From Acetobacter garciniae (GTDB lineage Bacteria; Pseudomonadota; Alphaproteobacteria; Acetobacterales; Acetobacteraceae): a stretch of DNA of 64,000 nucleotides. The notes beneath the pieces are model-generated. The model saw only the letters and a program-made list of their open reading frames with translations, was not told where the DNA came from and searched no databases. Of the stretch, positions 12,327-54,377 are shown in pieces (position 1 is the first letter of the stretch; each line of letters opens with the position of its first letter). The stretch is from assembly GCF_017377735.1 (NCBI RefSeq), contig NZ_JAFVMH010000002.1, positions 186,001 to 250,000 on the forward strand, read 5' to 3'. The position numbers were made by a program, and so were the translations under genes.

Positions 12327-12742
12327 TCCCGCAACCCGCCAGCGGCCTTCTATGCGTGAGGTCGCGCGGCTCGTCACGGCCGGCAGGGCGCATTTCATGG
12401 AATGCAGTCAGCCCTGCACGTTTCCACTGAGGGTATGTTTCCAAAGCATGGCCCGTCTGGCCCCGGCGGTTATGTGTTATTTTTTTATGTCGACTCGGCC
12501 CGCAGTCACCCTGCGCAGAGGGCGGGAATACACGCATGAAGGCGGTTTTCCGCGACTTTTTCCCTCATGTCGGCCCCGGTTTGCCCCCTGGTCGGCCCGC
12601 TGCGTGGCGCAGGCCATTGTTTGTGTTCTGAAATTTAAGTGAAACCGTGCCTTTTTTCGGACATTACATGTTGGCACAGTCCTTATGGACGGGGTCATTT
12701 TTACCCCGCAGGACTATTCTTGGACGTAGAAGGCGATATCTG
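12327..12742. other. Intergenic region upstream of the Spy-like gene
   Basis: 416 nt with no supported gene. Short reading frames here lack coding character. A small hairpin (GGGGT-N7-ACCCC) lies at about 12689-12705, 40 nt before the Spy-like start. Confidence 0.5.
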
Positions 12743-36973: not shown

Positions 36974-36990
36974 GCGGGCTATGTCTCCTG

Positions 36991-38521: not shown

Positions 38522-39784
38522 ATGCGCATGTGGGATCGGTTGTGGATCGACATCAATCTGGCGACGGACGCCACAGGCACCGGCCAGCCGGGAGGTGACG
38601 ATTTTGGCACGATCCCTGACGGCGCCATTGCCGTAAAGGATGGGGTCATCGCCTGGGTCGGATCGCGCGCGGACCTGCCCGGCACGCCCGAAAGCCTGGC
38701 GGCCGAGGTTCTGACCTGCGGTGGCCAGTGGATGACGGCAGGGCTGGTGGACCCGCACACCCATCTCGTCTTCGGGGGCGATCGAAGCGGGGAATTCGCC
38801 GAACGTCTGCAAGGCGTGTCCTACCAGGAAATCGCGCGCAGGGGTGGGGGCATCCTGTCCACCGTGCGCGCCACGCGCGAGGCGAGCGAGGAAGACCTGC
38901 TCCAGAGCACGCTCAAGCGCGCACGCACGCTGGTTGAAAACGGCGTGACCACGGTCGAGATCAAGTCCGGCTATGGGCTGCGGCTGGAAGATGAACTCAA
39001 GCAGTTGCGGGTGGCCCGTGCGGTGGGTCGGCACCTGCCCCTGCGGGTGCACACAACCTTCCTGGGCGCGCATGCCCTGCCGCCGGAATTTGCCGGGCGT
39101 CAGGCGGATTATGTCACCCATTTATGCAATGACATGCTGCCCGCCGTGGCCCGGGAAGGGCTTGCCGACAGTGTCGATGCGTTTTGTGAAACCATTGCCT
39201 TCACCCCTGCCGAGGTGGAGCAGATCTTCACCGTCGCGCGCGGGCTGAACCTGCCTTTGCGCCTGCATGCGGACCAGATGTCCGACCTGGGGGGCAGCGC
39301 GCTGGCCGCACGGTGGGGTGCGCTCTCGGCCGATCATGTGGAATACGCGACCGAGGCCGGGGCCCGCGCCATGGCCGAAGCGGGCACGGTGGCCATGCTG
39401 CTGCCCGGCGCGTTCTATTTCGTGCGCGAGGAAAAGCAGCCGCCCGTCGCCCTGTTCCGCAAGCATGGGGTGGCCATGGGGCTGGCCACGGACTGCAACC
39501 CCGGCACCTCCCCCATCCTGACCCCCACGGGCGTCATGAACATGGCCTGCACCCTGTTCCGCCTGACCCCGGGGGAGGCCCTGGCCGGGCACACCCATAT
39601 CGCGGCCCGGGCGCTGGGCCTGGCGGACACGGTGGGCCGCCTGCGTGTGGGAATGGCGGCGGACATGGCGTTGTGGGATATCGCCGGCCCGCATGAACTG
39701 TCCTACTGGATCGGCGGTGTGCGGCCCACAGGCCGTGTGTTCGCGGGCCAGCCGGATTGCCAGCCGGCCCGCCAGCCGGACTGA
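38522..39784 (+). CDS. hutI: Imidazolonepropionase
   Basis: 420 aa, amidohydrolase superfamily. Motifs: GLVDPHTHLVFGGDRSGEFA (metal His pair), GGGILSTVRATREASE, TTVEIKSGYGL, FLGAHALPPEF, LRLHADQMSD and LATDCNPGTSPI, the last containing the metal-binding Asp. It hydrolyses 4-imidazolone-5-propanoate to N-formimidoylglutamate. The C-terminus ends in a short Pro/Gln-rich extension (QPDCQPARQPD). It starts the hutI-hutC pair; hutC begins 75 nt downstream. Confidence 0.97.
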   Translation: MRMWDRLWIDINLATDATGTGQPGGDDFGTIPDGAIAVKDGVIAWVGSRADLPGTPESLAAEVLTCGGQWMTAGLVDPHTHLVFGGDRSGEFAERLQGVSYQEIARRGGGILSTVRATREASEEDLLQSTLKRARTLVENGVTTVEIKSGYGLRLEDELKQLRVARAVGRHLPLRVHTTFLGAHALPPEFAGRQADYVTHLCNDMLPAVAREGLADSVDAFCETIAFTPAEVEQIFTVARGLNLPLRLHADQMSDLGGSALAARWGALSADHVEYATEAGARAMAEAGTVAMLLPGAFYFVREEKQPPVALFRKHGVAMGLATDCNPGTSPILTPTGVMNMACTLFRLTPGEALAGHTHIAARALGLADTVGRLRVGMAADMALWDIAGPHELSYWIGGVRPTGRVFAGQPDCQPARQPD

Positions 39785-39859: not shown

Positions 39860-40585
39860 GTGTCGCAGGTTTTAGGAAAAGACAAGCCCACGGCCCGGTA
39901 TGAACAGGTCAAGCTGTATATTACCGAGCAGATCGAAACCGGCAAATGGGGCATTGGCCACCGCCTGCCGTCCGAAAGTGAGCTGGTCGAACAGCTTGGC
40001 GTCTCGCGCATGACCGTGCATCGCGCCCTGCGCGAACTCACGGCCGAAGGGGTCGTGACCCGTGCGCAGGGGGTGGGCACCTTTGTGGCGGAACCCGCGC
40101 AGCGGGTCGAGTTGCTGGAACTGCGCGATATTGCTGACGATATTCTCTCCAACGGTCATGTGCACAGCACCCGGATCATCACGCTCGATACGATCCGCGC
40201 CGATAGCGACCTGGCCACCGCCTTCGGCCAAAGACCCGGTGCCCGCCTGTATCATTCCATTATCGTCCATTACGAGGACGACACCCCCTTACAGGTGGAG
40301 GAACGTTTCGTCTCCTCCCATTTCGCGCCGGATTATTTGGAACAGGATTTCTCCCAGACCCATCCGCACCGCCACCTGTCCGCCATCGCCCGGCCGGAGG
40401 AAATCGAACACGTGGTGTTCGCCGTGACCCCCAGCCTGGATATCTGCCAGTTGCTTGAACTGGACGAACCCGAAGCCTGCCTGCAGCTCATGCGCCGCAC
40501 CTGGGTGGACGGGCGCGTGGTGATGAAGGGTATCTTCACCTATTCGGGCAGCCGCTACAGCTTTGTGGGCCGCTACCGGCCCTGA
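39860..40585 (+). CDS. hutC: Histidine-utilisation repressor, GntR family
   Basis: 241 aa. The N-terminal winged helix (PTARYEQVKLYITEQIETGK, LPSESELVEQLGVSRMTVHR, ALRELTAEGVVTRAQGVGTF) is followed by a UTRA effector domain (LYHSIIVHYEDDTPLQVEER, HRHLSAIARPEEIEHVVFAV). This is the HutC subfamily; urocanate is the usual inducer and binds the UTRA domain. Start is a GTG at 39860, with GGATAGGG upstream. Its likely targets are the five TGTA-N2-TACA-like sites found in this island. Confidence 0.96.
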   Translation: MSQVLGKDKPTARYEQVKLYITEQIETGKWGIGHRLPSESELVEQLGVSRMTVHRALRELTAEGVVTRAQGVGTFVAEPAQRVELLELRDIADDILSNGHVHSTRIITLDTIRADSDLATAFGQRPGARLYHSIIVHYEDDTPLQVEERFVSSHFAPDYLEQDFSQTHPHRHLSAIARPEEIEHVVFAVTPSLDICQLLELDEPEACLQLMRRTWVDGRVVMKGIFTYSGSRYSFVGRYRP

Positions 40586-40689: not shown

Positions 40690-40738
40690 TTGACAGGGGC
40701 GTCCGACCTGCGGCACATGAATGTATATACAAGTACAG
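40690..40738 (+). promoter_or_regulatory. hutU promoter region with palindromic HutC-like operator
   Basis: TGTATATACA at 40722-40731 is a perfect 10-bp palindrome fitting TGTA-N2-TACA, the hut operator form known from pseudomonads (recalled, not searched). A -35-like TTGACA lies at 40690-40695. The -10 is unclear, so the operator probably overlaps the transcription start. It is 21 nt before the hutU ATG. Confidence 0.6.
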
Positions 40739-40752
40739 TCAAGGTGTGCGCC

Positions 40753-42438
40753 ATGAGTAGCCCAACGTCATCCCGCCTTTCCAATGATCGTGTCATCCGC
40801 GCGGCCCACGGTTCGCAGCTTACCGCGAAAACCTGGCAGACCGAAGCGGCCCTGCGCATGCTGATGAACAACCTGGACCCCGAAGTGGCGGAAAAGCCCT
40901 CCGAACTGGTTGTCTATGGCGGTATCGGCCGCGCGGCCCGCAACTGGGACTGTTACGACCAGATCGTCGAAAGCCTGAAGGGCCTGGAAGCGGACCAGAC
41001 GCTTCTTGTCCAGTCCGGCAAGCCGGTGGGCGTGTTCCGCACGCATGAAAACGCGCCGCGCGTGCTGATCGCCAATTCCAACCTGGTGCCGCATTGGGCG
41101 AACTGGGACAAGTTCAACGAACTCGACCGCGCAGGGCTGATGATGTACGGCCAGATGACGGCGGGTTCGTGGATCTATATCGGCAGCCAGGGCATTGTTC
41201 AGGGCACGTACGAAACCTTTGTCGAAATGGGCCGCCAGTATTACGGCGGCGACCTGACCGGCCGCTGGATCCTGACCGGTGGCCTGGGCGGCATGAGTGG
41301 CGCGCAGCCTTTGGCCGCCGTCATGGCCGGGGCTTCCATGCTGGCGGTCGAATGCGAACCGGGCCGGATCGAAAAACGCCTGCAGACCGGCTATCTCGAC
41401 CGCAAGGTGGACACGCTGGACGAGGCGCTGGAAATTATCGACGCCGCCTGCAAAAGCGGCAAGCCGGTCTCTGTCGGGTTGCTGGGCAATGCGGCCGAAG
41501 TGTTCCCCGAACTGGTGCGGCGCGGTATCCGCCCCGACGGCGTGACCGACCAGACATCGGCCCATGATCCGCTCAACGGCTACCTGCCCGCGGGCTGGAC
41601 GCTCGAACACGCCGAGAAAATGCGTATCACGGACCCTGCCGCGGTTGAGAAAGCCGCAAAGGAATCCATGAAGTTGCATGTCGAAGCCATGGTGGCCTTC
41701 CACCGCATGGGTATTCCCACCTTCGATTACGGCAACAACATCCGCCAGATGGCGTTCGAGGTCGGCTGCGAGGATGCGTTCGCCTTCCCCGGTTTCGTTC
41801 CCGCCTATATCCGCCCGCTTTTCTGCCGTGGCGTGGGCCCGTTCCGCTGGGCAGCCCTGTCCGGCGACCCGGAAGACATTTTCAAGACCGATGCCAAGGT
41901 CAAGGAATTGTTGCCTGACGACAAGCATTTGCACAACTGGCTGGACATGGCGCGCGAGAAGATCCACTTCCAGGGCCTGCCCTCACGCATCTGCTGGGTA
42001 GGGCTGGGCGATCGCCATCGCCTTGGTCTGGCGTTCAATGAAATGGTGGCCAAGGGTGAACTCAAGGCCCCCATCGTCATCGGGCGCGATCATCTGGACA
42101 GCGGGTCCGTCGCCAGCCCCAACCGCGAGACCGAAGCCATGCGCGACGGTTCGGACGCCGTATCCGACTGGCCGCTGCTGAACGCGCTGCTCAACACCGC
42201 TTCGGGGGCCACATGGGTGTCCCTGCATCATGGCGGCGGCGTGGGCATGGGCTTTTCGCAGCATTCGGGCATGGTGATCGTAGCCGACGGTACGCAGGAC
42301 GCCGCCCAGCGGCTTGAACGCGTGCTGTGGAACGACCCGGCCACCGGCGTCATGCGCCATGCCGATGCGGGGTACGACATTGCCGTAGCCTGCGCACATG
42401 AAAAAGGGCTCGACCTGCCCATGATTACAAAAGGCTGA
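40753..42438 (+). CDS. hutU: Urocanate hydratase
   Basis: 561 aa, standard length. Conserved blocks: [52 protein letters not shown]-type [57 protein letters not shown] and [19 protein letters not shown]. It uses tightly bound NAD+ to convert urocanate to 4-imidazolone-5-propanoate. The frame opens at 40690, but ATG 40753 gives the normal N-terminus. It is separated from hutC by a 167-nt promoter region and followed six bases later by hutH. Confidence 0.98.
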
Positions 42439-42443
42439 GACAC

Positions 42444-43991
42444 ATGGCCAACAGTTTCGTTCTGACACCCGGCCAGCTTGACCTGGCCACCCTGCGTCGC
42501 TTCGTGTTTGAAAGCCCGTCCGTGACGCTGGACCCCGCAGCCCTCGATATCCTGGCCGAAGCCGCGCGTTCGGTCGACCGGATCGTGGCAGGTGGGGCCG
42601 CCGTTTACGGTGTGAACACAGGGTTTGGCAAGCTGGCCAAGACCCGTATCCCCGATGACAGGCTGCGTGACCTGCAACGCAACCTCGTGCTCAGCCATGC
42701 GGCGGGTATCGGCAAGCCGCTGCCCGAACGGGTCGTGCGTCTGATCCTGTTGCTCAAGGCCAATGGGCTGGGGCGTGGTTTTTCGGGCGTGCGTCCGCAG
42801 ATCGTGCAGCTGCTGCTGGACATGCTGGACCGTGGCGTCATTCCCGTCATTCCCGAAAAAGGTTCGGTCGGGGCTTCGGGCGACCTGGCGCCGCTGGCGC
42901 ATATGTCCGCCGTGCTGATCGGTGAGGGTGAAGCCTTCTTCAACGGCGAGCGCCTGCCGGGTGCGAAGGCCCTGCGTGCCGCAGGGCTTGAGCCGATCGT
43001 ACTCGGCCCCAAGGAAGGGCTGGCACTGCTCAACGGCACCCAGACCTCCACCGCGCTGGCGCTGGTGGCCCTGTTCGATGCCGAGCAACTGTTCCAGGCC
43101 GCATTGGTCACCGGGTCGCTCACGCTGGATGCCGCGCGCGGCACGGATGCACCGTTCGACCCGCGCCTGCACACGCTGCGGGGCCAGACCGGGCAGATCG
43201 AATGTGCCGCCGTCTATCGCGACCTGATGCAGGGTTCGGGCATTCGTGCCTCCCACCTGGTGGATGACGAACGCGTGCAGGACCCGTACTGCCTGCGCTG
43301 CCAGCCGCAGGTCATGGGGGCGGCACTGGACAGCCTGCGCCATGTCGCACGCGTGCTGCTGGTGGAAGCCAATGCGGTGTCCGACAACCCCATTCATTTC
43401 CCCGATACGGATGAAATGATTTCGGGCGGCAATTTCCATGCCGAACCCGTCGCCATCGCCGCCGACCTGATGGCGATCGCGGTGTCCGAAATCGGCGCGA
43501 TTGCCGAACGTCGCCTGGCCCTGCTGGTCGACCCGAGCATGAGCGGCCTGCCACCCTTCCTGGTCAATGACAGCGGCGTGAACTCCGGCTTCATGATCGC
43601 GCAGGTGACGGCCGCCGCCCTGGCGTCGGAAAACAAGACCCTGGCCCACCCGGCCAGCGTGGACAGCCTGCCCACATCCGCCAACCAGGAAGACCATGTT
43701 TCCATGGCCACGTTTGCAGCACGGCGCGTTGGTGATATCAACGACAATGTGCGCACCATTCTGGGAATCGAGTATCTGGCAAGCGTGCAGGGCCTGGACT
43801 TCCTGGCCCCGCTGACATCCTCCGCCGCCCTGGTGCGGGTGGCGGCGGCCCTGCGTGAACAGGTGCCGTTCTTCGCCCAGGACAGGCTGTTCACCACGGA
43901 TATGGAAGCAGCCAATGCCCTGATCGCATCGGGTGTGCTGACAAAGGCCGTGGCCGATACACGGGTTCTTCCAACGCTAGAGGCAGTCTGA
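42444..43991 (+). CDS. hutH: Histidine ammonia-lyase
   Basis: 515 aa. The MIO prosthetic group forms from A144-S145-G146 in [19 protein letters not shown]. Other family blocks: [46 protein letters not shown] and [13 protein letters not shown]. It deaminates L-histidine to urocanate, the entry step. The stop TGA overlaps the ATG of the following hydroxyacid dehydrogenase by one base (TGATG), a strong sign of translational coupling between the two. Confidence 0.98.
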
Positions 43992-45133
43992 TGGATGATG
44001 GCGCGTTTGCCGGGTTTTCGGAACAAGCGCGCCGTCGCCTGCCGCGATTATTTGCCGACTATATTGACGGGGGTGCGCATGGTGAACGCACCATGGCGCG
44101 CAACCGCGCGGCGTTCGGGCAATGGGGTATCGTGCCGCGTGGGCTGCGCGATGTTTCCTCCATAAACCTGGCCACGCAGTGTTTCGGCCGGTCCTGGGCG
44201 TTGCCGGTCTTTCTTGCGCCCCTGGGCTTTGCGGGCATGTTCCATGCCCATGGCGAACAGGGTGCGGCCTATGCCGCCCACAAGCGGGGCGTGGGCATGG
44301 GGGTTTCGACCTTTTCCATTGCCCCCATGGAAAAAGTGGCTGCCACCGGCGCCGATCTCATGGCGCAGATCTATGTCTTCCGTGACCGCGCGCTCACGCG
44401 CGACATGCTGGAGCGTGCGCGGGCTTGCGGCATGGACGGCATTATCCTGACAATCGATACCGCCATTACCCCCGTGCGCGAACGCGATATGCGCAACGGG
44501 TTTCGCCATCTTTCACGGCCCACGGCAACACAGATGGCGGGGCTTCTGCGCCATCCCTCCTGGCTGTATGGGCAGGTGCGGGGTGGGGCCATGCCGAATG
44601 TGGGCAATATTGCGGGCTATACCGGTTCGCGCGGGGTCATGGCCCAGGCGCGTGATGTCGTCGCCCAGATCGATGCGGGCCTGGACTGGGATGACCTGGC
44701 CTGGCTGCGCGCGACCTGGGGCGGCACGCTTGTCGTCAAGGGGATCATGCACCCCGATGATGCCATCCGTGCCGCCGAAATCGGGGCCGATGGGCTGATT
44801 ATCTCCAACCATGGCGGCCGGCAGATGGACCCCGCCCCGGCCACGCTGGATGTCCTGCCCGCAATCGCCCAGGCCGTGGGCGGGCGCGTCGATATCATGC
44901 TCGACAGTGGCATCCGCCGCGGGGGGGATGTGGTTGCAGCCCTTGCTTTGGGGGCCCGTGCGGTCTCCATCGGGCGGCCCTGGGCCTGGGGGCTTGCCGC
45001 CGGCGGGGCACGCGGCGTGGGTCTTGTGCTCGATACGCTGGCGCGTGAAATAAGCGATGTCATGGCGCTGGCGGGCCTGCCCGATATTGCGGCCGTGCGG
45101 GCCGCGGGCCGCAACGCCCTGTGGCGATTCTGA
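43991..45133 (+). CDS. FMN-dependent L-2-hydroxyacid dehydrogenase coupled to hutH
   Basis: 380 aa, LldD/glycolate oxidase family. N-terminal LPRLFADYIDGGAHGERTMA, then FLAPLGFAGMFHAHGEQGAA, IILTIDTAITPVRERDMRNG, LVVKGIMHPDDAIRAAEIGA and the catalytic-His motif IISNHGGRQMD (His ~274), followed by DSGIRRGGDVVAALALGARA. The family oxidises L-2-hydroxy acids (lactate, mandelate, glycolate) to 2-oxo acids. Its start overlaps the hutH stop and it ends the hutU-hutH transcription unit. This suggests an imidazole substrate such as L-imidazolelactate rather than lactate; that is inference from context only. Confidence 0.92.
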   Translation: MDDGAFAGFSEQARRRLPRLFADYIDGGAHGERTMARNRAAFGQWGIVPRGLRDVSSINLATQCFGRSWALPVFLAPLGFAGMFHAHGEQGAAYAAHKRGVGMGVSTFSIAPMEKVAATGADLMAQIYVFRDRALTRDMLERARACGMDGIILTIDTAITPVRERDMRNGFRHLSRPTATQMAGLLRHPSWLYGQVRGGAMPNVGNIAGYTGSRGVMAQARDVVAQIDAGLDWDDLAWLRATWGGTLVVKGIMHPDDAIRAAEIGADGLIISNHGGRQMDPAPATLDVLPAIAQAVGGRVDIMLDSGIRRGGDVVAALALGARAVSIGRPWAWGLAAGGARGVGLVLDTLAREISDVMALAGLPDIAAVRAAGRNALWRF

Positions 45134-45168
45134 TCCGGGCGGTTCTGACCCGCCCGGGACCGGCAGAC

Positions 45169-45248
45169 AAAAGTTTTTGGTGAAGCTTTTTTCAAAAAGC
45201 TTCAGGGGATGTCACCTTTTTGAAAAAAGGCGACACCCAAAAACTTTT
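45169..45248 (+). repeat. Dispersed double-hairpin repeat, copy 7
   Basis: Plus orientation, 35 nt after the hydroxyacid dehydrogenase stop and between convergent transcription units. Confidence 0.9.
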
Positions 45249-45283
45249 ATTCCTCTCTATCAAAGCCCTGTTTTGAAGCGGCC

Positions 45284-46240
45284 TCAGCTTGCCTCGGCCT
45301 TGGGTTTTTGCGATTCCCGTATGCGGCCGATGATATAGTCACCGGCCGAGACGGGTTCGAAAAATGCCTTTGTCCCTTCGGGAAGGTTCAGGTCGCGCGG
45401 GTCGACGATCGCGTCGTAGTCCGGGTCGTAGAATGTCGCGATCGACAGGCGTTCCTTGCCCGAACGGTTCGTGACCCGATGCATGTTGGAATGATAGCGG
45501 TTGTTCGACCACCGGCACAGAAGATCGCCGATATTGATGACAAGCGTGCCCGGTATGGGCGGTGCGGGAATCCAGTTGCCATCCGCGCCCTGTACGTCCA
45601 GCCCGCCAACGCCATCCTGCCAGAGCAGCGTAATGCACCCGTAATCGGTATGGGGGGCAACACCGAACTGGTCGTGCTCGCGTTCGGGCGGGTGGGGCGG
45701 GTACCAGATGGCCTGCGTGCGCTGGAGCGGGCGGTCGTATTTCCCCACGAAAAAATCAGGCGCAATGCCCAGCGAACACGCGACCGAGCGCAGCAGCGCC
45801 TGCCCGCAAACCCCCACGGCGTTGAAATAATCCATCATCGCCGTCCGGAAGGCGGGACGGCCCGCGGGCCACTGGTTGGGGCCACGCAGCGGCTGCCCGG
45901 CAAGAACGGCCGGATCGTCGGGCGGAAGTTCCAGCCCGATCTGGAAAAATTCCTTATAATCGGGGTTATCGGCCCCATACATGATCGTGCGGTTGAGCGC
46001 GTTGAATCCGCGCACGGCCTCCTTTGGCTTGCAGGCCAGTTTTTCTTCCATGGGGGCGTGGAAGAAATCCATCGCTTCGTGGCGGACGCGTTCGATCAGT
46101 TCGTCGGGAATGCCGTGGTTGCGGACATAGCAAAAGCCGGATGTGGTGAAGGCGTGGCCGATCTGCGCACCCGCCGTGGCATAGTCGCCCTGCAATGCAA
46201 GGCCGAGATCGATGATGGGGAGATAGGCGGTCTCGCTCAT
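45284..46240 (-). CDS. Isopenicillin-N-synthase-family Fe(II)/2-oxoglutarate-type oxygenase
   Basis: 318 aa. The N-terminal DIOX_N region (LPIIDLGLALQGDYATAGAQ, GFCYVRNHGIPDELIERV) is followed by the 2OG-Fe(II) core. Iron ligands are H197 and D199 (APHTDYGCITLLWQDGVGG) and H254 (NMHRVTNRSGKERLSIATF); R264-x-S266 is the 2-oxoglutarate/co-substrate-binding pair. Such enzymes hydroxylate, desaturate or cyclise small molecules. It is the last gene of the hisC-like / FAD-dehydrogenase / hutD unit, whose promoter carries a HutC-like site. The substrate is therefore likely an imidazole compound, but this is not shown. The ATG lies 27 nt after the hutD stop. Confidence 0.9.
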   Translation of the reverse strand: MSETAYLPIIDLGLALQGDYATAGAQIGHAFTTSGFCYVRNHGIPDELIERVRHEAMDFFHAPMEEKLACKPKEAVRGFNALNRTIMYGADNPDYKEFFQIGLELPPDDPAVLAGQPLRGPNQWPAGRPAFRTAMMDYFNAVGVCGQALLRSVACSLGIAPDFFVGKYDRPLQRTQAIWYPPHPPEREHDQFGVAPHTDYGCITLLWQDGVGGLDVQGADGNWIPAPPIPGTLVINIGDLLCRWSNNRYHSNMHRVTNRSGKERLSIATFYDPDYDAIVDPRDLNLPEGTKAFFEPVSAGDYIIGRIRESQKPKAEAS

Positions 46241-46267
46241 GATATACCTTGTCTCTGAATAGGGTTC

Positions 46268-46846
46268 TCAGGATAGGGAGGGAAGAAGAACGGCCACGAG
46301 GCGGCCTGCATGACCCGCCCGCCGCATGGCGCGCAGTGGCTGTCTGCCTGTCGGCCCCATGGCGATCATGCCCGGTGTCAGCGCCTGCTCGTATCCTTCA
46401 AGCCGCCATGTGCCGTGCACGGGCAGGAGAAAAGCCATGTGCCCGCCAGGCATGTCGGCCGACTGGGCATGGCAGTGCATTTCAGCCCCAAAGGTGGGGG
46501 CGGCCATGAGATTGAAGGCCTGCACGGGCGTGCCATGGCAACCGGCGAAAACGGCATCCTCCCCCGAAAAATGCACGATATCGCCAGAATTCTGCAAAAC
46601 CTGCGGGCCCGTGGCCAGCCCGGTCAGCGTCAGCCTGCCATCGCACGCCAGGGCCAGGCTGCGTGCAAAGCCCGGAAAGAACGAGAAAGCGCAGTCCTGC
46701 GTGATGGAGGCCAGGCTGATGCGCCATACGGCCCCCGCGACCCCGTACCGATCCGCCGGGCTGATGGCGATTTCACGCGTCTTGCCCGCCCCGTTGCGCC
46801 AGGCCGAAACGGGAAAACTGTCCAGTGCGGCAAAGGTCATGCTCAT
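46268..46846 (-). CDS. hutD: HutD/Ves family protein
   Basis: 192 aa, double-stranded beta-helix cupin-like. The signature WRNGAGKTREIAISP and the block VWRISLASITQDCAFSFFPG are those of HutD/Ves. In Pseudomonas, HutD limits the maximal level of hut expression, perhaps by binding N-formylglutamate (family knowledge). Its ATG overlaps the stop of the upstream FAD-dehydrogenase gene by four bases (ATGA), so they are translationally coupled. Its presence ties this minus-strand operon to histidine breakdown. Confidence 0.93.
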   Translation of the reverse strand: MSMTFAALDSFPVSAWRNGAGKTREIAISPADRYGVAGAVWRISLASITQDCAFSFFPGFARSLALACDGRLTLTGLATGPQVLQNSGDIVHFSGEDAVFAGCHGTPVQAFNLMAAPTFGAEMHCHAQSADMPGGHMAFLLPVHGTWRLEGYEQALTPGMIAMGPTGRQPLRAMRRAGHAGRLVAVLLPSLS

Positions 46847-48306
46847 GCGGGCTGGCAGGCCTTGGGGTGGGCGGCAACGGCGGGCAGCAGCTTACCGGGG
46901 TTGAGAATGCCATTGGGGTCCAGCGCATGCTTGATGGCGCGCATGACATCCAGGGCTACAGCATCGTGTTCGTCGGGCATGAACTCCATCTTGGCCAGCC
47001 CCACCCCGTGTTCACCGCTGGCCGAGCCGCCGAGCGAGAGCGCGCGGGCGATAATCCTGCGGTCCAGCGCGTGGGCTTTGGCAAGCCAGTCCTCCCCTTC
47101 GGGGACAAGCATGACCGTATGGAAGTTGCCATCGCCGATATGCCCGACAATGGGGGCGGTAATGCCCGAATCCTCGATGTCCTTCTTGGCCCCCAGGATC
47201 ATGTCCGTCAGGGCGGAAATGGGAACGATGGCATCGGTGGAAATGCCTGTATAACCGGGCCGGTACGCAAGGCACGCCCAGTAGACGGCATGCCGCGCCT
47301 TCCACAGTTCGGCACGTTCCTGTTCACGCGTGCTCCAGGTGAAGGCGGAGCCGTGGTTTTCGGCCACGATATCCTCGACAAGGGCCACCTGCTCGCGCAC
47401 GGCTTCCGGCCCGCCTGCGAATTCGAAGAACATGGTGGGGACGGGGCGGAACCCCTCAAGCTTGGAAAAGCGGATGCACGCATCCATCTGCACGTCATCG
47501 AGCAGTTCCATGCGTCCGATGGGCACGCCCATCTGCATGACCTGCACGGCGGTGTTGACGCAATCGGCCAGCGTGTCGAACTGGCAGACGGCGGCGGCCA
47601 GGGTCTCGGGCACGCCATGCAGGCGGACCTGCACTTCCGTGATGATGCCCAGCGTGCCTTCCGATCCGATCATCAGGTGCGTGAGGTCATACCCCATGGC
47701 CGACTTGCGCACCCGCCGACCCACCTGCATGACACGCCCATCGGCCAGAACCACCGTCAGCCCCAGCACGTTTTCACGAATGGTGCCGTAGCGTACCGCC
47801 CCCGTGCCCGATGCGCGCGTGGCGCACATGCCGCCGATCGTGGCCTCACCCCCCGGATCGACGGGGAAGAACAGCCCTTCGTCGCGCAGGTAGGCGTTCA
47901 GGGCCTGGCGGGTCACGCCTGCCTGCACGCGGCAGTCCATGTCCCCGGCATTGACCTCCAGCACCTTGTCCATGCGCGACAGGTCTATCGAAATGCCGCC
48001 TTCAATGGCGTTGACCTGCCCTTCAAGCGAGGTACCGGCACCAAACGGCACAACGGGGGCGCGCCAAGCGTTGCACACGCGCAGGATCTGCGAAACCTCC
48101 TGCGTGCTTTGCGCGAAAATGACCGCGTGGGGAAAATGCCGGGCGTGATAGCCCTCCCCATGCGCGTGCTGTTCGCACACGGACGGGTTGCGCGACAGGC
48201 GCTCGGCAAAATGCGGGGCCAGTTCGGCAATGGCGGCGTCGATGCGTTGCGGTACGGTCAGGGTCTGGCTTGTCATGTCGGATGTTCGCGTATCTGCTGT
48301 TGTCAT
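46843..48306 (-). CDS. FAD-linked D-2-hydroxyacid dehydrogenase (GlcD/LDHD-like)
   Basis: 487 aa. The N-terminal PCMH-type FAD-binding domain shows VVPFGAGTSLEGQVNAIEGG, ATIGGMCATRASGTGAVRYG and HLMIGSEGTLGIITEVQVRL. The C-terminal cap has GHIGDGNFH and SGEHGVGLAKMEFMP (metal/substrate His residues) and ends DPNGILNPGK. Relatives oxidise D-lactate, D-glycolate or other D-2-hydroxy acids and pass electrons to quinone or cytochrome. It is co-transcribed with a HisC-like aminotransferase upstream and hutD (4-nt overlap) downstream. Oxidation of D-imidazolelactate to imidazolepyruvate is the context-based guess. Confidence 0.92.
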   Translation of the reverse strand: MTTADTRTSDMTSQTLTVPQRIDAAIAELAPHFAERLSRNPSVCEQHAHGEGYHARHFPHAVIFAQSTQEVSQILRVCNAWRAPVVPFGAGTSLEGQVNAIEGGISIDLSRMDKVLEVNAGDMDCRVQAGVTRQALNAYLRDEGLFFPVDPGGEATIGGMCATRASGTGAVRYGTIRENVLGLTVVLADGRVMQVGRRVRKSAMGYDLTHLMIGSEGTLGIITEVQVRLHGVPETLAAAVCQFDTLADCVNTAVQVMQMGVPIGRMELLDDVQMDACIRFSKLEGFRPVPTMFFEFAGGPEAVREQVALVEDIVAENHGSAFTWSTREQERAELWKARHAVYWACLAYRPGYTGISTDAIVPISALTDMILGAKKDIEDSGITAPIVGHIGDGNFHTVMLVPEGEDWLAKAHALDRRIIARALSLGGSASGEHGVGLAKMEFMPDEHDAVALDVMRAIKHALDPNGILNPGKLLPAVAAHPKACQPA

Positions 48307-48330
48307 GTCCGGGATGGACCCGGTTCTGGT

Positions 48331-49533
48331 TTATGCCTCGACGGGAGCCCGTGTGCCAGTCGGCCCTGCGCCCGTCAGCCCGGTGCCAGTCGGCTGCGCG
48401 GATGCGGGGTGTGCGGCCAGGATCGCGCTCAGGGCTGCGACAAAGCGCGCATTGTCCTCGGGCAGGCCGATGCTGACCCGCGTCCAGTGCGTGTAGCCCC
48501 GTTCCTTCCAGGGTTTGACGATAATGCCCTGGTGCAGAAGGGCTTCGGCCAGATCGCCCGACGATATTTCAGTCTCGAAGAACAGGAAGTTGCCGTAGGA
48601 GGGAGCGACTTTCAGCCCCAGCCGGACAAGTTCGGCGCGCAGGCTCTCACGCGCCTGGTTGGTTTTTTCAATGCTCCGGCGCATTTCTTCCAGGCCGTCG
48701 AGCGCACCCAGGGCTGCAAGCTGGGCGGCAATATTGGTGTTGAACGGATCGCGCACCCGGCCCAGCGTCTGGGCAATGGCGTCGTCGGAGGTAATGGCGT
48801 AACCGATCCTGAGCCCGGCCAGACCATACGCCTTGGAGAAGGTGCGCAGCACGATCCACGGGCGCGCCTGTTCCCGCAGGATGGCCTGTGCATTGGGGTA
48901 GGCGGGGTCCGTTTCGGCGTATTCGCGGTAGGCTTCATCCACCACGATCAGGCAGTCGGCAGGGCAGGCGGCAACAAGGGCGCGCAAATCGTCCGCCCCC
49001 ATCATGCAGCCCACCGGATTGGACGGGTTGGCGAAGACCAGCAGCTTGACGGGCTGGGCCACGGCCGCGCGCAGGGCTTGCAGATCGAATTCGCATTCCG
49101 CCGTGACCGGCACCGCGTCCACCACGCCACCCATCATCTCGGCGGTCAGGATATGCAGCCCGAAGGAGGGCAGGACGGTCACGACCCGATCGCCCGCGCT
49201 GACATAGGCTTCCGGTATCATGCGAATGATCTGTTCCGAACCGTTGCCCAGCACGATGCGGGAGGGGGATTCGCCCACATGCCGGGCCAATGCATCCTTG
49301 AGCGCCTGGTCGGCCTCGGGGTAGAGTGCCACCTTGTGGCCAAGCCCGGCCAGCGCCGCATGAACGGGCGAGGGCGCGCCGTAGGGGTTTTCGTTGCTGC
49401 CCAGCTTGCTGATGGCGGATACGCCGTAACGGGCCTGAACGGCCTGGGTGCTGAGCCCCGCATTATAGGGCGGCAGATGCGCCACTTCCGGCCGGCAGGC
49501 GGGTGCGCAAGAACTGGCGGGTTTGGCGGACAT
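48331..49533 (-). CDS. HisC-like aminotransferase in the hut regulon
   Basis: 400 aa, PLP-dependent class I/II aminotransferase of the histidinol-phosphate type. Motifs: AISKLGSNENPYGAPSPVHA, GNGSEQIIRMI, VFANPSNPVGCMM, VVDEAYREYAE, the PLP-lysine motif RTFSKAYGLAGLRIGYA and RDPFNTNIAAQ. HisC-type enzymes also transaminate histidine and aromatic amino acids. No other his biosynthetic gene is near, and it heads an operon with hutD behind a HutC-like operator. It therefore more likely interconverts histidine and imidazolepyruvate than serves biosynthesis. ATG 49533 follows CAGGAGA. The C-terminal Pro/Thr/Gly-rich tail is unusual. Confidence 0.88.
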   Translation of the reverse strand: MSAKPASSCAPACRPEVAHLPPYNAGLSTQAVQARYGVSAISKLGSNENPYGAPSPVHAALAGLGHKVALYPEADQALKDALARHVGESPSRIVLGNGSEQIIRMIPEAYVSAGDRVVTVLPSFGLHILTAEMMGGVVDAVPVTAECEFDLQALRAAVAQPVKLLVFANPSNPVGCMMGADDLRALVAACPADCLIVVDEAYREYAETDPAYPNAQAILREQARPWIVLRTFSKAYGLAGLRIGYAITSDDAIAQTLGRVRDPFNTNIAAQLAALGALDGLEEMRRSIEKTNQARESLRAELVRLGLKVAPSYGNFLFFETEISSGDLAEALLHQGIIVKPWKERGYTHWTRVSIGLPEDNARFVAALSAILAAHPASAQPTGTGLTGAGPTGTRAPVEA

Positions 49534-49556
49534 GACCGGTTTCTCCTGTTCAATCT

Positions 49557-49566
49557 TGTACATACA
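49557..49566. promoter_or_regulatory. HutC-like operator upstream of the hisC-like gene
   Basis: TGTACATACA fits TGTA-N2-TACA exactly, within the longer near-palindrome CTTGTACATACAAG (49555-49568; six-base arms perfect). It lies 23 nt before the hisC-like start codon on the minus strand. A clear -35/-10 pair is not evident. Confidence 0.65.
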
Positions 49567-49691
49567 AGCACATTGGAATTTGTTGGTCGAGCGGAATTAT
49601 TCCCATCTTTCCGTCTGGGGAAAAGAGCGCAATGTTTGTATGGGGCCTCGGGATTATCAGGAAAAATATCCCCGATCATTTCGAAATGAGA

Positions 49692-49719
49692 TTGACCGAT
49701 CTTGTACAGACAACATAGA
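49692..49719 (+). promoter_or_regulatory. phyH-like operon promoter with HutC-like operator in the spacer
   Basis: -35 TTGACC (49692-49697), five bases, operator TGTACAGACA (49703-49712), one base, -10 CATAGA (49714-49719): a 16-bp spacer. The layout is the same, base for base in spacing, as the TonB-receptor and hutF promoters. The predicted transcript starts about 30 nt before the ATG at 49757. Confidence 0.6.
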
Positions 49720-49756: not shown

Positions 49757-50572
49757 ATGACGCAGATGGTATCGGCCATTCCCGGGTTCGAACAAGTCGA
49801 GTCTTTCCAGCGTGACGGCGCTGTCGTGCTGCGTGGCGCGTTCGCCCCCTGGGTTGAAATCCTGCGCGCGGGCATCGACCGCCTGATGGCTGACCCCAGC
49901 CCGCTCGAACGGTCCTACCAGCCCGAAGGCTCGGCCCCGTTTTTCCAGGATCTGTGCAACTGGCAGCGTATTCCCGAATTCCGCGACTTCGTGGAACGCT
50001 CCGGCGTGGGGGGGATTGCAGCAGCCCTCATGCGCGCGCGGGAGGTCAGGTTTTTCCATGACCACGTGCTGGTCAAGGAACCGGGCTCCTCCGTTGTCAC
50101 ACCCTGGCACCAGGACCGGCCCTATTATTGCGCGCGCGGGCCGCAGACCGTCAGCTTCTGGATCCCGCTCGACCCCGTGCCCGCGTCCTGCGCGCTGGAA
50201 TGCGTGGCGGGTTCGCATAAATGGGGCATGGATCACAAGCCAATGCGCTTCGATGGCACCCCCCTTTACGCCGATGACGACAGCACCCCCATGCCCGATA
50301 TCGACGCCAACCGCGATGCGTACCGTATCCTGGGCTGGGACATGGCCCCGGGCGATGCGGTGGCCTTTGATTTCGGAACCGTTCATGGGGCCGCGGCCAC
50401 CGTGGGGGCGATCAACCGGCGGCGGGTGTTCTCCGCCCGGCTGGTGGGGGAAGGTGCAACCTTTGCCGACCGTAACGGCAAGGGGTCGCCGCCGCTGGCA
50501 CATCTGACCCTGCACGACGGAGACCCGCTGGTGGGTGAGGATTTTCCCGTTCTGTATTCCGTTTCGGCGTGA
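49757..50572 (+). CDS. Phytanoyl-CoA dioxygenase (PhyH) family oxygenase
   Basis: 271 aa. Iron ligands are H118 and D120 in TPWHQDRPYYCARG and H210 in FGTVHGAAATVG; RRRVFSARLVG holds the 2-oxoglutarate-binding Arg. Opening block FQRDGAVVLRGAFAP is typical. The family includes ectoine and phytanoyl-CoA hydroxylases and demethylating enzymes acting on small amino-acid derivatives. It is the first gene of a five-gene unit with an amino-acid ABC importer (start of the binding protein overlaps its stop as GTGA) and an NCS1 permease. An upstream open frame reaches 49523 but would cross the promoter, so ATG 49757 is chosen. The substrate is presumably what the importer brings in. Confidence 0.88.
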   Translation: MTQMVSAIPGFEQVESFQRDGAVVLRGAFAPWVEILRAGIDRLMADPSPLERSYQPEGSAPFFQDLCNWQRIPEFRDFVERSGVGGIAAALMRAREVRFFHDHVLVKEPGSSVVTPWHQDRPYYCARGPQTVSFWIPLDPVPASCALECVAGSHKWGMDHKPMRFDGTPLYADDDSTPMPDIDANRDAYRILGWDMAPGDAVAFDFGTVHGAAATVGAINRRRVFSARLVGEGATFADRNGKGSPPLAHLTLHDGDPLVGEDFPVLYSVSA

Positions 50573-51438
50573 GGGCGCGCCACCTTTTCTGGGGGCTTGC
50601 GGCCATGGCGCTGGCATGCGCGCCTGCGGCCCATGCCGGCTGCCTGGACGATATCCGGGCCGCCGGGGTCATGCGGGTGGGCAACGGGCTGCTGGGCGCG
50701 CATCCCTCCCTGTGGCAGGACAGGGACGGGGTCTATCACGGGATCGACGCGGATGTGCTGAGCGAGCTGACCCGGCGCATGGGCCTGCCCCGTTCGGAGT
50801 TCATCATTACCGAATGGGCCACCATGGTGCCGGGGCTCAAGGCCGGGCGGTGGGATATCATCCTGTCCGACACCAACATCACGCAGGAACGGCACGTGCT
50901 GGGGCATGTGCTGTTCTCCACACCGTATTTCATGCTCTACGACTATATCATCGTCCCGCAGGATTCCCCCATCCACACCCTGGCCGACATGAAGGGCAAG
51001 GTGATCGGCTCCGTTTCGGGCACGAACGATTCCGCCACCGCCCACAGGCTTGTCGAACAGGGAATTGGCGCGTCCGTGGCTGATTACGATACGTTCGGCG
51101 ACCCTTTCATTGCCCTGCGCAACGGGCAGATCGACGCCATTGTGGTGGACCAGGGCACGCTTCAGGCACAGCGGCCGCATTTTCAGGGATTGCGCACGAT
51201 CGGCGATCCGGTGTTCTACACGCCCAAGCCGCAATGGGCCAAGGCGGAAGCCGCCGCGTCCTACCGGCTGGGGAGCGAAGGGGTTGTCGTGCGCGAAGCC
51301 TGTCCGGACCTGCTGGCGGCGATCAATACCGCACTGGCGGGCATGCGGGCGGACGGGACGCTGCGCGCCATTCTCAAACGCTACGATGTGTGGGAACCCC
51401 AGCAGGACCACCTGATCAAGGGCCCGGGACAGGATTGA
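50569..51438 (+). CDS. Amino-acid ABC transporter substrate-binding protein
   Basis: 289 aa, SBP_bac_3 family. Signal peptide about residues 1-22 (ending AHAG), then CLDDIRAAGVMRVGNG, DGVYHGIDADVLSELTRRMG, ITQERHVLGHVLFSTPYFML and DMKGKVIGSVSGTNDSATA. The GTG start overlaps the PhyH stop (GTGA). Together with the following permease and ATPase it forms a polar-amino-acid-type importer. Genomic context suggests histidine or an imidazole derivative. Confidence 0.93.
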   Translation: MRARHLFWGLAAMALACAPAAHAGCLDDIRAAGVMRVGNGLLGAHPSLWQDRDGVYHGIDADVLSELTRRMGLPRSEFIITEWATMVPGLKAGRWDIILSDTNITQERHVLGHVLFSTPYFMLYDYIIVPQDSPIHTLADMKGKVIGSVSGTNDSATAHRLVEQGIGASVADYDTFGDPFIALRNGQIDAIVVDQGTLQAQRPHFQGLRTIGDPVFYTPKPQWAKAEAAASYRLGSEGVVVREACPDLLAAINTALAGMRADGTLRAILKRYDVWEPQQDHLIKGPGQD

Positions 51439-51447
51439 GCGCGGCGC

Positions 51448-52158
51448 ATGTATAATTTCTTTTTCCATGAAGTGCCCGAGCATCTTCCCTTTCTGCTCCA
51501 GGGCGCGCTGGTCACGATCGAGCTGTCCCTTATCTCCATGGCGCTGGGCATGGTGCTGGGGTTCTGCGTGGCCGTGGGGCGCATGGCCGCCAGCCGCCTG
51601 GTGCGCTGGCCGCTCGATGCGGTGGTCGAGGTCGTGCGTGACACGCCGCTGATCGTGCAGTTGCTGCTGATCTATTTCGCCCTGCCCGAAATCGGGATCG
51701 TGCTCAATGCGTTCTGGGCGGGTATCGCGGGGCTTACGCTCAACCTTGCCGCCTATCTGTCCGAAGTGTTTCGCGCAGCCATACTGGCGGTGGATAGCGG
51801 GCAGCGGCAGGCGGCGGTTTCGCTTGGCATGTCGCGTATTGCGGTCTATCGCCGGGTGATCATCCCGCAGGCGGCCCTTGCGTCCCTGCCCACGCTGGGC
51901 GGGTATTTCATCGCCCTGCTCAAGGACTGTTCCCTCGTATCGTTCATTTCGGTCAACGAACTGCTGCGCCACGCGACCATCGTCATTTCGGATACGTTCG
52001 ACAGCATGAACACCTATATCATGGTGGCCATCATCTATTTCATCATGAGCTTTGCCAGCGCGCGCGTCATTCGCTACATCGAACTGCGGCTGACCCCGTC
52101 GGATCGTCGCCAGACCATCAGCGTGCCGCTGACCATGGACAAGGAAGGTGCGCGATGA
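51448..52158 (+). CDS. Amino-acid ABC transporter permease
   Basis: 236 aa, HisM/HisQ-type permease. The N-terminal LLQGALVTIELSLISMALGM opening is typical of PAAT permeases, as are VRDTPLIVQLLLIYFALPE and the EAA loop REAA-equivalent SLGMSRIAVYRRVIIPQAA. About five membrane helices. A single permease gene is present, so it probably acts as a homodimer. Starts 9 nt after the binding protein; its stop overlaps the ATPase start by four bases (ATGA). Confidence 0.93.
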   Translation: MYNFFFHEVPEHLPFLLQGALVTIELSLISMALGMVLGFCVAVGRMAASRLVRWPLDAVVEVVRDTPLIVQLLLIYFALPEIGIVLNAFWAGIAGLTLNLAAYLSEVFRAAILAVDSGQRQAAVSLGMSRIAVYRRVIIPQAALASLPTLGGYFIALLKDCSLVSFISVNELLRHATIVISDTFDSMNTYIMVAIIYFIMSFASARVIRYIELRLTPSDRRQTISVPLTMDKEGAR

Positions 52159-52949
52159 CCGGCCAGAGCGGTGAACACAGGGCCGAATCCGCGCCTATCC
52201 TGACAATTCGCGGGTTGCACAAGGTTTTTCGGGGGAACCCTATCCTTAAAGGCGTGGACCTTTCCCTGCGTGAAGGTGAGATCGCCTGCCTGATCGGCTC
52301 AAGTGGTGCGGGCAAGTCCACCATCCTGCGCTGCATCAACTTTCTCGAACGCCCCGATGCGGGGGAAATCACGGTGTTCGGCACGCCGCTGTGCTGGCAG
52401 GCGGGCGAATGCGTGCAGATCGCGCCCGAGCGCACCGTGCAGGCGGCCCGGGCCCGCATGCCCATGGTGTTCCAGCATTTCAACCTGTTCTCGCACCGCA
52501 CGGTGATGGAAAACGTGATGGAAGGGCAGGTCGTGGTTCTGCGCCGCAGCAAGGCCGAGGCCCGTGCGCGTGCCCGCGACTGCCTGGCCCGCGTGGGCCT
52601 GCTGGACCGTTCGGATTTCTACCCCCGCCAGCTTTCGGGCGGGCAGCAGCAGCGTGTGGCCATTGCCCGCGCCCTTGCCATGTCGCCCAGCCTGATCCTG
52701 TTCGACGAACCGACCAGCGCGCTGGACCCCGAACTGGTGCAGGGCGTGCAGAGCGTGATCCGCGATCTGTCGGCCGAAGGCATGTCGATGCTGATCGTCA
52801 CCCACGAAATGCGCTTCGTGCGCTCCATTGCGCAAACGGTCCATTTCTGCGAAGGCGGCCGGATTGCGGAGAGCGCTCCGGTCAGTGAAATTTTTGGTTC
52901 GGACGCGCATGAGCGAATCCGCGCGTTCATGGAGGTCACTCATGGTTGA
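52155..52949 (+). CDS. Amino-acid ABC transporter ATP-binding protein
   Basis: 264 aa, GlnQ/HisP-type. Walker A GSSGAGKSTILR, signature LSGGQQQRVAIARAL, Walker B LILFDEPTSALDPELV and the switch His in VTHEMRFVRS. The insertion between Walker A and Q-loop (CWQAGECVQIAPERTVQAAR) is as in HisP-like proteins. Couples ATP hydrolysis to uptake through the adjacent permease. ATG lies within the permease stop (ATGA). Confidence 0.95.
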   Translation: MTGQSGEHRAESAPILTIRGLHKVFRGNPILKGVDLSLREGEIACLIGSSGAGKSTILRCINFLERPDAGEITVFGTPLCWQAGECVQIAPERTVQAARARMPMVFQHFNLFSHRTVMENVMEGQVVVLRRSKAEARARARDCLARVGLLDRSDFYPRQLSGGQQQRVAIARALAMSPSLILFDEPTSALDPELVQGVQSVIRDLSAEGMSMLIVTHEMRFVRSIAQTVHFCEGGRIAESAPVSEIFGSDAHERIRAFMEVTHG

Positions 52950-52982
52950 GCCCCGTCTTTTCCCGTGTGGAACATTTGGGTC

Positions 52983-54377
52983 ATGACAGTGCAGGCAGGT
53001 ACGACGGAGCACGGCCCCGACTTTCTTCCCGATTCTGCGGTCGAATTCCAGACGATCTATCCCGTGGCGGAATCCGAACGGCACGGCCGGGCGCGGGACC
53101 TGTTCGCCCTGTGGTTCGGCGCGAATATGACCATGCTGACCGTGACCACGGGTGGCGTCATGCGCGGCACGTTCCATCTTTCCCCCATGGCCGCCCTGCT
53201 GGCCGCCGTGGTGGGGAACCTGGTCGGCGGGCTTTTCATGGCGTTGCATGCGGCCCAGGGGCCCCATCTTGGCATTCCGCAGATGGTGCAGTCCCGCGCG
53301 CAGTTCGGCATGCTGGGGGCGGCCCCCATGACAGCGCTGATCGTGATCATGTTCCTGGGGTTTTCCGCGTCCAATCTCGTCTTGGGGGCCCAGGGACTGG
53401 CCAGCATGGACAGCCATCTCGGCGGGGTGCCGGGTATGGTTGTCGTGGCCCTTCTCTCGCTTGTGCCGGCTGTTCTGGGCTACCGGGCCATACATGCCGC
53501 AACCCGCGTGGCCTCGCTGTTCTGCGGGTCGGCGGTGCTGATCTGCCTTGTCGTGGCCCTGCGCCATGTCCCGCTGGATACCGGCTGGTGGCTGGGCGAC
53601 GGGCATGACACGCTGCCGGGTTTTCTGGGGGCGATGTCGCTGGCCGCCTTGTGGCAGATCGCCTACGCGCCCTATGTGTCGGATTATTCGCGCTATCTGC
53701 CCAGCAGTCGCGCGGGCGAACGCCTGGCGTTCCATGCCACCTACTGGGGCTGCGCGCTGGGGTCGTTCGTGGCCATGCTGGTAGGCATTGTCACCGGTGC
53801 TAATGTCACCTCCGTGCTGCACCACGAACTGGGGGGCTTTGCCGCACCGATCCTGGCTGTCCTGGCCCTTGGTATCATCATCGCCAATGCCATGAACCTG
53901 TATTGCGGTGCGTTGTCGTCCATTACCGTGTTCCAGACCGTGGCCCCGGGCCGGCATTTCGGCCCTTCATGGCGGATCGGGCTGACCATAGGGTTGCTGG
54001 TCCTGGCCCTGGTCGAAGCCATTGCCATGGCGGGGCAGTTCGATGCGGCCTATACGGGTTTTCTCGAACTGCTCATGGCCATCATGGTGCCGTGGTCGGC
54101 AATCAACCTGGTGGACTATTACGTCTTGCGCCACGGCGCGTATGACCTGCCGTCTTTCTTCGCGCGCGATGGCGGGGTTTACGGGCGGTTCAACATACGT
54201 GCCCTGTTGTCCTACGCATTCGGCCTGCTCGCACAGATTCCCTTTCTCGCCAATGAGCTTTATGAAGGCCCCGTGGCAAAGGCGTTTGGCGGGGCCGATC
54301 TGTCCTGGGTTTTCGGGCTGGCCCTGACGGCTGTTGTCTACTGGCTGGCGATGCGTCGGGGCAACACGGTCATTTAA
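52983..54377 (+). CDS. NCS1-family permease (cytosine/allantoin type)
   Basis: 464 aa, about twelve membrane segments. The NCS1 block ESERHGRARDLFALWFGANM, the helix-3 part GIPQMVQSRAQFGMLGAAPM and WQIAYAPYVSDYSRYLP identify the family, which takes up nucleobases, hydantoins and related heterocycles. In pseudomonad hut loci an NCS1-type permease has been linked to urocanate uptake (from memory). Here it is the last gene of the phyH-ABC unit, so urocanate or another imidazole is a likely cargo. ATG 52983 is chosen over a GTG at 52965. It lies 33 nt after the ATPase gene. Confidence 0.92.
   Translation: MTVQAGTTEHGPDFLPDSAVEFQTIYPVAESERHGRARDLFALWFGANMTMLTVTTGGVMRGTFHLSPMAALLAAVVGNLVGGLFMALHAAQGPHLGIPQMVQSRAQFGMLGAAPMTALIVIMFLGFSASNLVLGAQGLASMDSHLGGVPGMVVVALLSLVPAVLGYRAIHAATRVASLFCGSAVLICLVVALRHVPLDTGWWLGDGHDTLPGFLGAMSLAALWQIAYAPYVSDYSRYLPSSRAGERLAFHATYWGCALGSFVAMLVGIVTGANVTSVLHHELGGFAAPILAVLALGIIIANAMNLYCGALSSITVFQTVAPGRHFGPSWRIGLTIGLLVLALVEAIAMAGQFDAAYTGFLELLMAIMVPWSAINLVDYYVLRHGAYDLPSFFARDGGVYGRFNIRALLSYAFGLLAQIPFLANELYEGPVAKAFGGADLSWVFGLALTAVVYWLAMRRGNTVI

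Follow-up and report, generated by a model that had tools for sequence, protein, structure and literature searches.

Among the described systems closest to the locus analyzed here are an old biochemical route in Pseudomonas testosteroni, the HutC-controlled five-step hut pathway and the mammalian dehydrogenase LDHD. Coote and Hassall reportedly described the degradation of imidazolyl-lactate and imidazolylpropionate in P. testosteroni in 1973 (Biochem J 132:409), and the group working on that organism is also said to have described an imidazolyllactate enzyme linked to nicotinamide adenine dinucleotide phosphate (NADP). We know of no genes assigned to that route. The HutC regulon already includes transporters of the COG1457 family and TonB type, according to PMC5343134, and the literature gives the HutC core as TGTA-N2-TACA (PMC12977541). 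Mouse LDHD is a general D-2-hydroxyacid dehydrogenase whose metal- and carboxylate-binding residues are R347, H398, H405, E442 and H443 (PMC10589216, also the source of every LDHD residue given below).

We analyzed a 64,000-nucleotide stretch of the Acetobacter garciniae genome (the window) that contains a hut island carrying genes for a HisC-like aminotransferase, a GlcD-like and an LldD-like dehydrogenase and two oxygenases. With a probability of about two in three, these genes form a feeder branch of hut that would turn L- and D-imidazolelactate into imidazolepyruvate and then into histidine for HutH, under HutC control and with oxygenases widening the range of substrates. The LldD-like enzyme would oxidize an L-2-hydroxyacid and the GlcD/LDHD-like flavin- and metal-dependent enzyme a D-2-hydroxyacid, most likely the two enantiomers of imidazolelactate, each giving imidazolepyruvate. 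The HisC-like enzyme would transaminate imidazolepyruvate in the direction of L-histidine, and flux would continue to urocanate and onward through HutH, HutU, HutI, HutF and HutG. Repression by HutC would be released upon urocanate formation, the compounds would enter through ABC, NCS1 and TonB systems, and the two oxygenases would probably feed further imidazole compounds into the same route.

Gene order and predicted HutC sites in the island

The branch is built directly into the hut genes, and its core comprises the following features.

42444..43991, plus strand: hutH, histidine ammonia-lyase, named from reading; 85-89% identity in four relatives
43991..45133, plus strand: lldD-like flavin mononucleotide (FMN) L-2-hydroxyacid dehydrogenase, predicted L-imidazolelactate dehydrogenase; PF01070 (FMN_dh), 414 bits
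45284..46240, minus strand: ipns, IPNS-like Fe(II)/2-oxoglutarate (2OG) oxygenase; PF14226 and PF03171
46268..46846, minus strand: hutD (Ves-like); PF05962, 86 bits
46843..48306, minus strand: glcD, flavin adenine dinucleotide (FAD) D-2-hydroxyacid dehydrogenase, predicted D-imidazolelactate dehydrogenase; PF01565 (FAD_binding_4) and PF02913 (FAD-oxidase_C)
48331..49533, minus strand: hisC-like aminotransferase, predicted imidazolepyruvate/histidine aminotransferase; PF00155 (Aminotran_1_2)
49555..49568: HutC-type operator, perfect palindrome CTTGTACATACAAG, 21 bp 5' of hisC
49701..49714: HutC-like operator CTTGTACAGACAAC 5' of phyH, 2 mismatches, from motif scan
49757..50572, plus strand: phyH, hut-linked PhyH-type Fe(II)/2OG dioxygenase; PF05721, 97 bits

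The TGA of hutH (43989-43991) and the ATG of lldD (43991) share the pentanucleotide TGATG at 43989-43993, and hisC, glcD and hutD follow one another on the reverse strand, with 24 nt between the end of hisC and the start of glcD and a 4-nt overlap between glcD and hutD, from which we infer that the three genes are co-transcribed. The TGATG junction and the 4-nt overlap are as the initial annotation had described them, and its family assignments were borne out by profile matches (FMN_dh, FAD_binding_4 with FAD-oxidase_C, Aminotran_1_2 and HutD). For hisC we prefer the start at 49533, which has AGGAG 9 bases 5' of the ATG and yields 400 residues, over the longest-open-reading-frame start at 49563. 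The proposal of a hydroxyacid branch integrated into hut, with a HutC-type operator and a conserved order, thus stands in part; its extent was drawn too narrowly, taking in hisC, glcD, hutD and lldD and leaving out the IPNS-like and PhyH-like oxygenases, the ABC transporter, the NCS1 permease and the TonB receptor. The ipns gene lies 3' of hutD on the same strand as hisC-glcD-hutD, and a divergent row of genes, phyH-sbp-perm-atp-ncs1, begins at 49757 with an operator-like site of its own and is followed by the TonB receptor gene.

The HutC-like operator claimed for the hisC promoter is present as an exact palindrome: CTTGTANNTACAAG lies at 49555-49568 and fits the published HutC core. Sites with two mismatches were found at 49701 (phyH) and 40720 (hutU), and a fourth match, also with two mismatches, lies outside the island at 12719; the window thus holds 4 matches with ≤2 mismatches against 0.45 expected, a number reached in 0/100 shuffles. 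A similar site precedes hutU in the seven Brytella, Gluconacetobacter, Komagataeibacter and Asaia loci that were scanned (L053-L058 and L060; L numbers are our locus labels). On the phyH side, a site with ≤3 mismatches at ≤70 bp from the estimated start occurs in 13/14 acetic acid bacteria and 7/8 other scanned loci, where the weight lies in the recurring place, a 3-mismatch match within a few hundred bases being not rare by chance. The hutC gene together with the predicted sites before hisC, hutU and phyH points to a HutC regulon. Scans for promoters (3 found, 3.2 expected) and terminators (13 found, 10.4 expected) gave no clear excess over shuffles. The remaining features of the island are these.

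36176..37087, minus strand: hutG, N-formylglutamate deformylase; TIGR02017, 331 bits, exceeding the cut-off of 278.75
36991..38418, minus strand: hutF, formimidoylglutamate deiminase; TIGR02022, 562 bits, exceeding the cut-off of 413
38522..39784, plus strand: hutI, imidazolonepropionase, named from sequence and place; 70-82% identity in four relatives
39860..40585, plus strand: hutC, GntR-type repressor, named from reading; same place and 82-90% identity in four relatives
40720..40733: HutC-like operator AATGTATATACAAG 5' of hutU, 2 mismatches, from motif scan
40744..42438, plus strand: hutU, urocanase, named from reading (possible alternative start, ATG at 40753); 87-96% identity in four relatives
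50569..51438, plus strand: solute-binding protein (SBP_bac_3) of an amino-acid-type ABC transporter; PF00497, 87 bits
51448..52158, plus strand: ABC transporter permease, named from reading; order conserved
52155..52949, plus strand: ABC transporter ATPase, named from reading; order conserved
52965..54377, plus strand: NCS1-family permease; PF02133, 164 bits
54539..57055, plus strand: TonB-dependent receptor, named from reading; same place and 70-79% identity in 14/14 acetic acid bacteria

The five-step hut set (hutH, hutU, hutI, hutF and hutG) is therefore complete, with hutF and hutG above their NCBIfam cut-offs and hutI, hutU and hutH holding their positions in relatives. Fourteen acetic acid bacteria retain the cassette with nearly every gene, and the same genes stand together in four relatives compared further (three stretches are common to both sets); the initial annotation had made its reading depend on such conservation. 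The genes lldD, ipns, hutD, glcD, hisC and phyH occur in all 14 loci and the NCS1 gene in 13. In 12/14, lldD lies directly 3' of hutH, and the remaining two stretches end just past lldD. Six Acetobacter loci have the lldD part (in four of them with hutH) beyond the TonB gene; there the cassette has thus been rearranged without being dispersed. The window genome measures 3.8 Mb, and the nearest cassettes are those of Komagataeibacter, Gluconacetobacter, Brytella and Asaia. L006-L009, L071 and L074 carry the same kind of cassette on short stretches, for which the "hut/nohut" labels in our HisC and LldD trees are unreliable.

Recurrence of the aminotransferase and dehydrogenases at hut loci

The HisC clade to which the window protein belongs is rare, being found in 12/398 Pseudomonadota genomes at E ≤ 1e-85 (window genome included) and, at E ≤ 1e-95, in 9/150, 4/101 and 5/100 within three families. 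The sample outside the acetic acid bacteria consists of 27 loci, that is, all 26 distinct HisC matches beyond the window genome and one from Pandoraea. A hut enzyme lies within about 10 kb in 21/27 (20 when a weak edge match, hutF of L152, is set aside), a GlcD-type gene likewise in 21/27 (at ≤300 nt in 14), and a HutC-like gene is present in 17/27. The search for similar neighborhoods that the initial annotation had called for revealed a D-2-hydroxyacid dehydrogenase of another subfamily, GlcD2, beside HisC of this clade within hut operons (L148 and L172) or at their end (L147, L170 and L173). The order is hutG-hutF-hisC-glcD2-hutI-hutD-hutU-hutH-hutC in L148, hisC-glcD2-hutG-hutF-hutI in L147 and L170, and hutI-hutF-hutG-glcD2-hisC in L173. 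Eight Halomonas-type loci (L081, L088, L091, L096, L150 and L175-L177) follow the order ipns / hutH-(lldD2)-glcD2-ABC-hisC-(phyH)-hutC, with parts optional, and four of them carry an LldD-type gene directly behind hutH. As a control, a fetched subset of 14 other GlcD loci from the window's family had hut enzymes or hisC nearby in 0/14 cases.

In a HisC tree (62 rows reduced to 50 by dropping repeats and short rows), the acetic acid bacterial proteins group with family f43 (support 90/95) within a mostly hut-linked clade. The window HisC scores below the equivalog cut-offs for the biosynthetic enzyme (PRK05166, 493.7 vs 540; TIGR01141, 269.1 vs 276.55), and a second HisC homologue is encoded elsewhere in the same genome. 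Members of the clade carry a K-x-W motif, at a place where four further HisC homologues from these genomes show R-H (three) or K-N (one); the HisC rows of L072, L155 and L153 are absent, as is the motif of L151 from the K-x-W reading. This motif may bear on the choice of substrate.

The nearest solved relative of the window GlcD is mouse LDHD (499 bits, E 1e-148, against E 3e-47 for D-2-hydroxyglutarate dehydrogenase in the same profile search), and its score is far below the glycolate oxidase equivalog (TIGR00387, 330.5 vs 567.9). The LDHD residues named above correspond, in our alignment, to R338, H389, H396, E432 and H433, which are kept in 24/24 acetic-acid-bacterial rows (repeats included), marking the protein as LDHD-type, and also in 20 GlcD2 rows from hut loci. 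In the 20 GlcD2 rows the side-chain pocket has A/G (20/20), N (19/20) and T/S (19/20). Compared with W351, S365 and I407 of LDHD, it offers more room and greater polarity, which would suit an imidazole. A quick tree, built from 94 rows reduced to 65 (repeats, short rows and L001-L009 removed) and then to 53 (every other background row removed), places the acetic acid bacterial GlcD with LDHD-like Acetobacteraceae proteins, separated by long, well-supported branches from the GlcD2 of other hut loci. Two distant GlcD subfamilies thus appear to have been recruited beside related HisC and hut genes, which argues that the activity was selected and not mere neighborhood; D-2-hydroxyacid oxidation looks to have been selected at hut loci. 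LldD matches PF01070 and has the catalytic residues Y24, Y128, R165, K250, H274 and R277, alike in the acetic-acid-bacterial hut rows, consistent with membership in the FMN superfamily, and it scores below the L-lactate dehydrogenase cut-offs (PRK11197, 315.9 vs 376; NF033901, 284.7 vs 550).

Relatives of the clade also occur in other settings. Pandoraea terrae (L066 and L194, one genome) has, at one site, a hut operon with hisC, ABC and ipns-glcD2 genes and, at a second site, phyH-ABC together with hutC-like genes. HisC matches at E ≤ 1e-70 lie on 127 plasmid records, including Sinorhizobium (49), Klebsiella (31), Escherichia (18) and Enterobacter (13), of which three contexts were inspected. 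The Escherichia coli plasmid pYUSHP6-3 (NZ_CP073770.1; L199:7622-11371) carries a 3' hutU remnant, 82% identical over 83 residues to the end of the window HutU, followed by HisC (49%), by an FMN alpha-hydroxy acid oxidase that shares 49% identity with the Halomonas-type LldD, and by an iron alcohol dehydrogenase; mer genes are not far away. A Shinella plasmid (L201:624-10155) combines a HisC relative (45%) with annotated hutC, hisD, an alcohol dehydrogenase, a PotD-type ABC transporter and an SDR-like dehydrogenase, and has no glcD; this set may serve a similar route that starts from a different imidazole compound.

Oxygenases and alternative readings

The two oxygenases are the more novel part of the island. 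In the IPNS-like protein, H197-x-D199...H254 and R264-x-S266 are invariant in five orthologues. The PhyH protein has the H-x-D...H metal triad of PhyH dioxygenases in 79/79 aligned relatives, drawn from 80 loci. A hut enzyme or HutC-like gene accompanies PhyH in 47 of these loci and is lacking in 33, which include L071 and L074 (stretches cut), many loci on short contigs, and the SAR116 group. In the last of these (L089 and similar), PhyH relatives of 55-59% identity sit in a conserved neighborhood where SDR, epimerase and enolase-family genes recur and hut genes were not seen. PhyH as an obligate partner of HisC-GlcD was rejected: among 14 PhyH genomes hand-picked from the 80 loci, only one has a HisC of the clade, so the PhyH and HisC-GlcD parts are separable. 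The neighbors of PhyH in other lineages (TRAP, NMT1-type ABC, SDR, luciferase-like and M20 peptidase genes) give no agreed substrate. Rieske-type oxygenases form a third family: in rhizobial loci L156-L159, genes for a Rieske oxygenase (VanA_C) and its reductase precede hisC-glcD2 and ABC transporter genes. L155 carries a Rieske gene of 61% identity in the vicinity of hutC-like, hisC and hutH genes, and in L117 one of 60% adjoins phyH.

Perhaps the oxygenases act on imidazolepropionate or N-methylated imidazoles. Imidazolepropionate is classically held to induce hut without being metabolized. A bolder proposal, which we regard as tentative and on balance doubtful, is that the island encodes the whole aerobic breakdown of imidazolepropionate and of imidazole acids like it, in which IPNS-like or PhyH enzymes (Rieske-type elsewhere) would hydroxylate the side chain to give imidazolelactate, the flavin dehydrogenases and HisC would complete the conversion to histidine under HutC control, and PhyH would be a hut entry enzyme across Alpha-, Beta- and Gammaproteobacteria.

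Several observations weigh against the imidazolelactate branch as we propose it. The LldD, GlcD and HisC families are broad in specificity, with many 2-hydroxyacids, 2-oxoacids and amino acids among their substrates. Six of the 27 HisC-clade loci have no hut enzymes and six have no GlcD gene; four rhizobial loci pair HisC-GlcD with a Rieske oxygenase and reductase, and no hut genes were seen there; and the glcD2 match of L172 is in two pieces. The GlcD pocket of the acetic acid bacteria resembles that of non-hut kin. The nine LldD active-site positions inspected are shared with L002, a paralogue that the window genome carries outside hut, and the LldD side-chain pocket was accordingly rejected as evidence for imidazole. 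In a tree of 23 LldD rows (31 before repeats and short rows were dropped), the approximately unbiased (AU) test does not reject a single origin of the two LldD groups (p = 0.296); LldD recruitment therefore cannot be called independent.

Among the alternatives, the one that fares best is that the true substrate is another histidine derivative, such as an N-methylated or betaine histidine or imidazolepropionate, hydroxylated or demethylated first by PhyH, IPNS or Rieske enzymes, with GlcD and HisC taking the product. An oxygenase of one of these three unrelated families lies near 15/27 HisC-clade loci, and the frequent association of PhyH with hut enzymes or HutC-like genes, together with its nearest fold, MysH, fits this explanation; yet hisC-glcD also occurs with hut genes where none of the three oxygenases is nearby, and we consider it unlikely. 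Improbable, in our judgment, is a general salvage of aromatic 2-hydroxyacids (phenyl-, indole- and imidazolelactate from yeasts or lactic acid bacteria) with hut as one of several outlets. Among solved structures, the one closest to HisC is a putative phenylalanine aminotransferase, and LDHD has a general specificity (PMC10589216), but the genes lie in hut operons or beside hut genes in 21/27 loci and under a HutC-type operator, and no Phe, Tyr or Trp catabolic gene was recognized in the cassette, the other loci not being annotated gene by gene. By-product clean-up, with GlcD acting on D-2-hydroxyglutarate or glycolate, LldD on lactate (from the oxygenase surroundings or elsewhere) and HisC in histidine-glutamate transamination, matches the family names and the two 2OG-using oxygenase families but is very improbable given a GlcD that scores 330 vs 568 bits for glycolate oxidase and is far nearer LDHD than D-2-hydroxyglutarate dehydrogenase, and a hut tie that persists where none of the three oxygenase families was found nearby (L147, L148, L170 and L173).

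Relation to described routes

If the feeder branch is real, textbook histidine catabolism has a conserved side route through which the hydroxyacid form of histidine is recovered. Such a route is easily overlooked, since the families its enzymes are matched to bear the names histidinol-phosphate transaminase, glycolate oxidase and lactate dehydrogenase. It would offer genes for an old biochemical observation and correct annotations in several lineages. It would also bring a hut-linked PhyH oxygenase family with directly testable candidate substrates, imidazolepropionate or methylated histidines, the former a microbial metabolite tied in the literature to human and animal metabolic disease. We found no paper on the gene branch in the open-license literature among the matches listed; as far as these reach, neither the genetic module and its spread nor the oxygenases seem to have been described.

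Compared with known systems, the island shares with the HutC regulon and the five-step pathway the full enzyme set, HutC, HutD and operator sites; the accessible part of PMC5343134 names the histidine biosynthesis operon as a HutC target in two species but otherwise no hisC, glcD, lldD or oxygenase gene. The window HisC belongs to the same family as the biosynthetic enzyme (PF00155, with a PRK05166 match) and differs in its catabolic setting, separate clade and K-x-W motif. Like mouse LDHD, the window GlcD keeps the metal and carboxylate residues; unlike it, GlcD belongs to hut and has L94, Y342 and V398 in place of V101, W351 and I407. PhyH differs from MysH, a PhyH-family dioxygenase of mycosporine biosynthesis, in its hut-linked setting. 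Finally, the predicted chemistry of the branch resembles the P. testosteroni work, so the branch would be the genetic form of a known kind of route, distinguished here by a proposed flavin dehydrogenase for each enantiomer and by its HutC-type operator.

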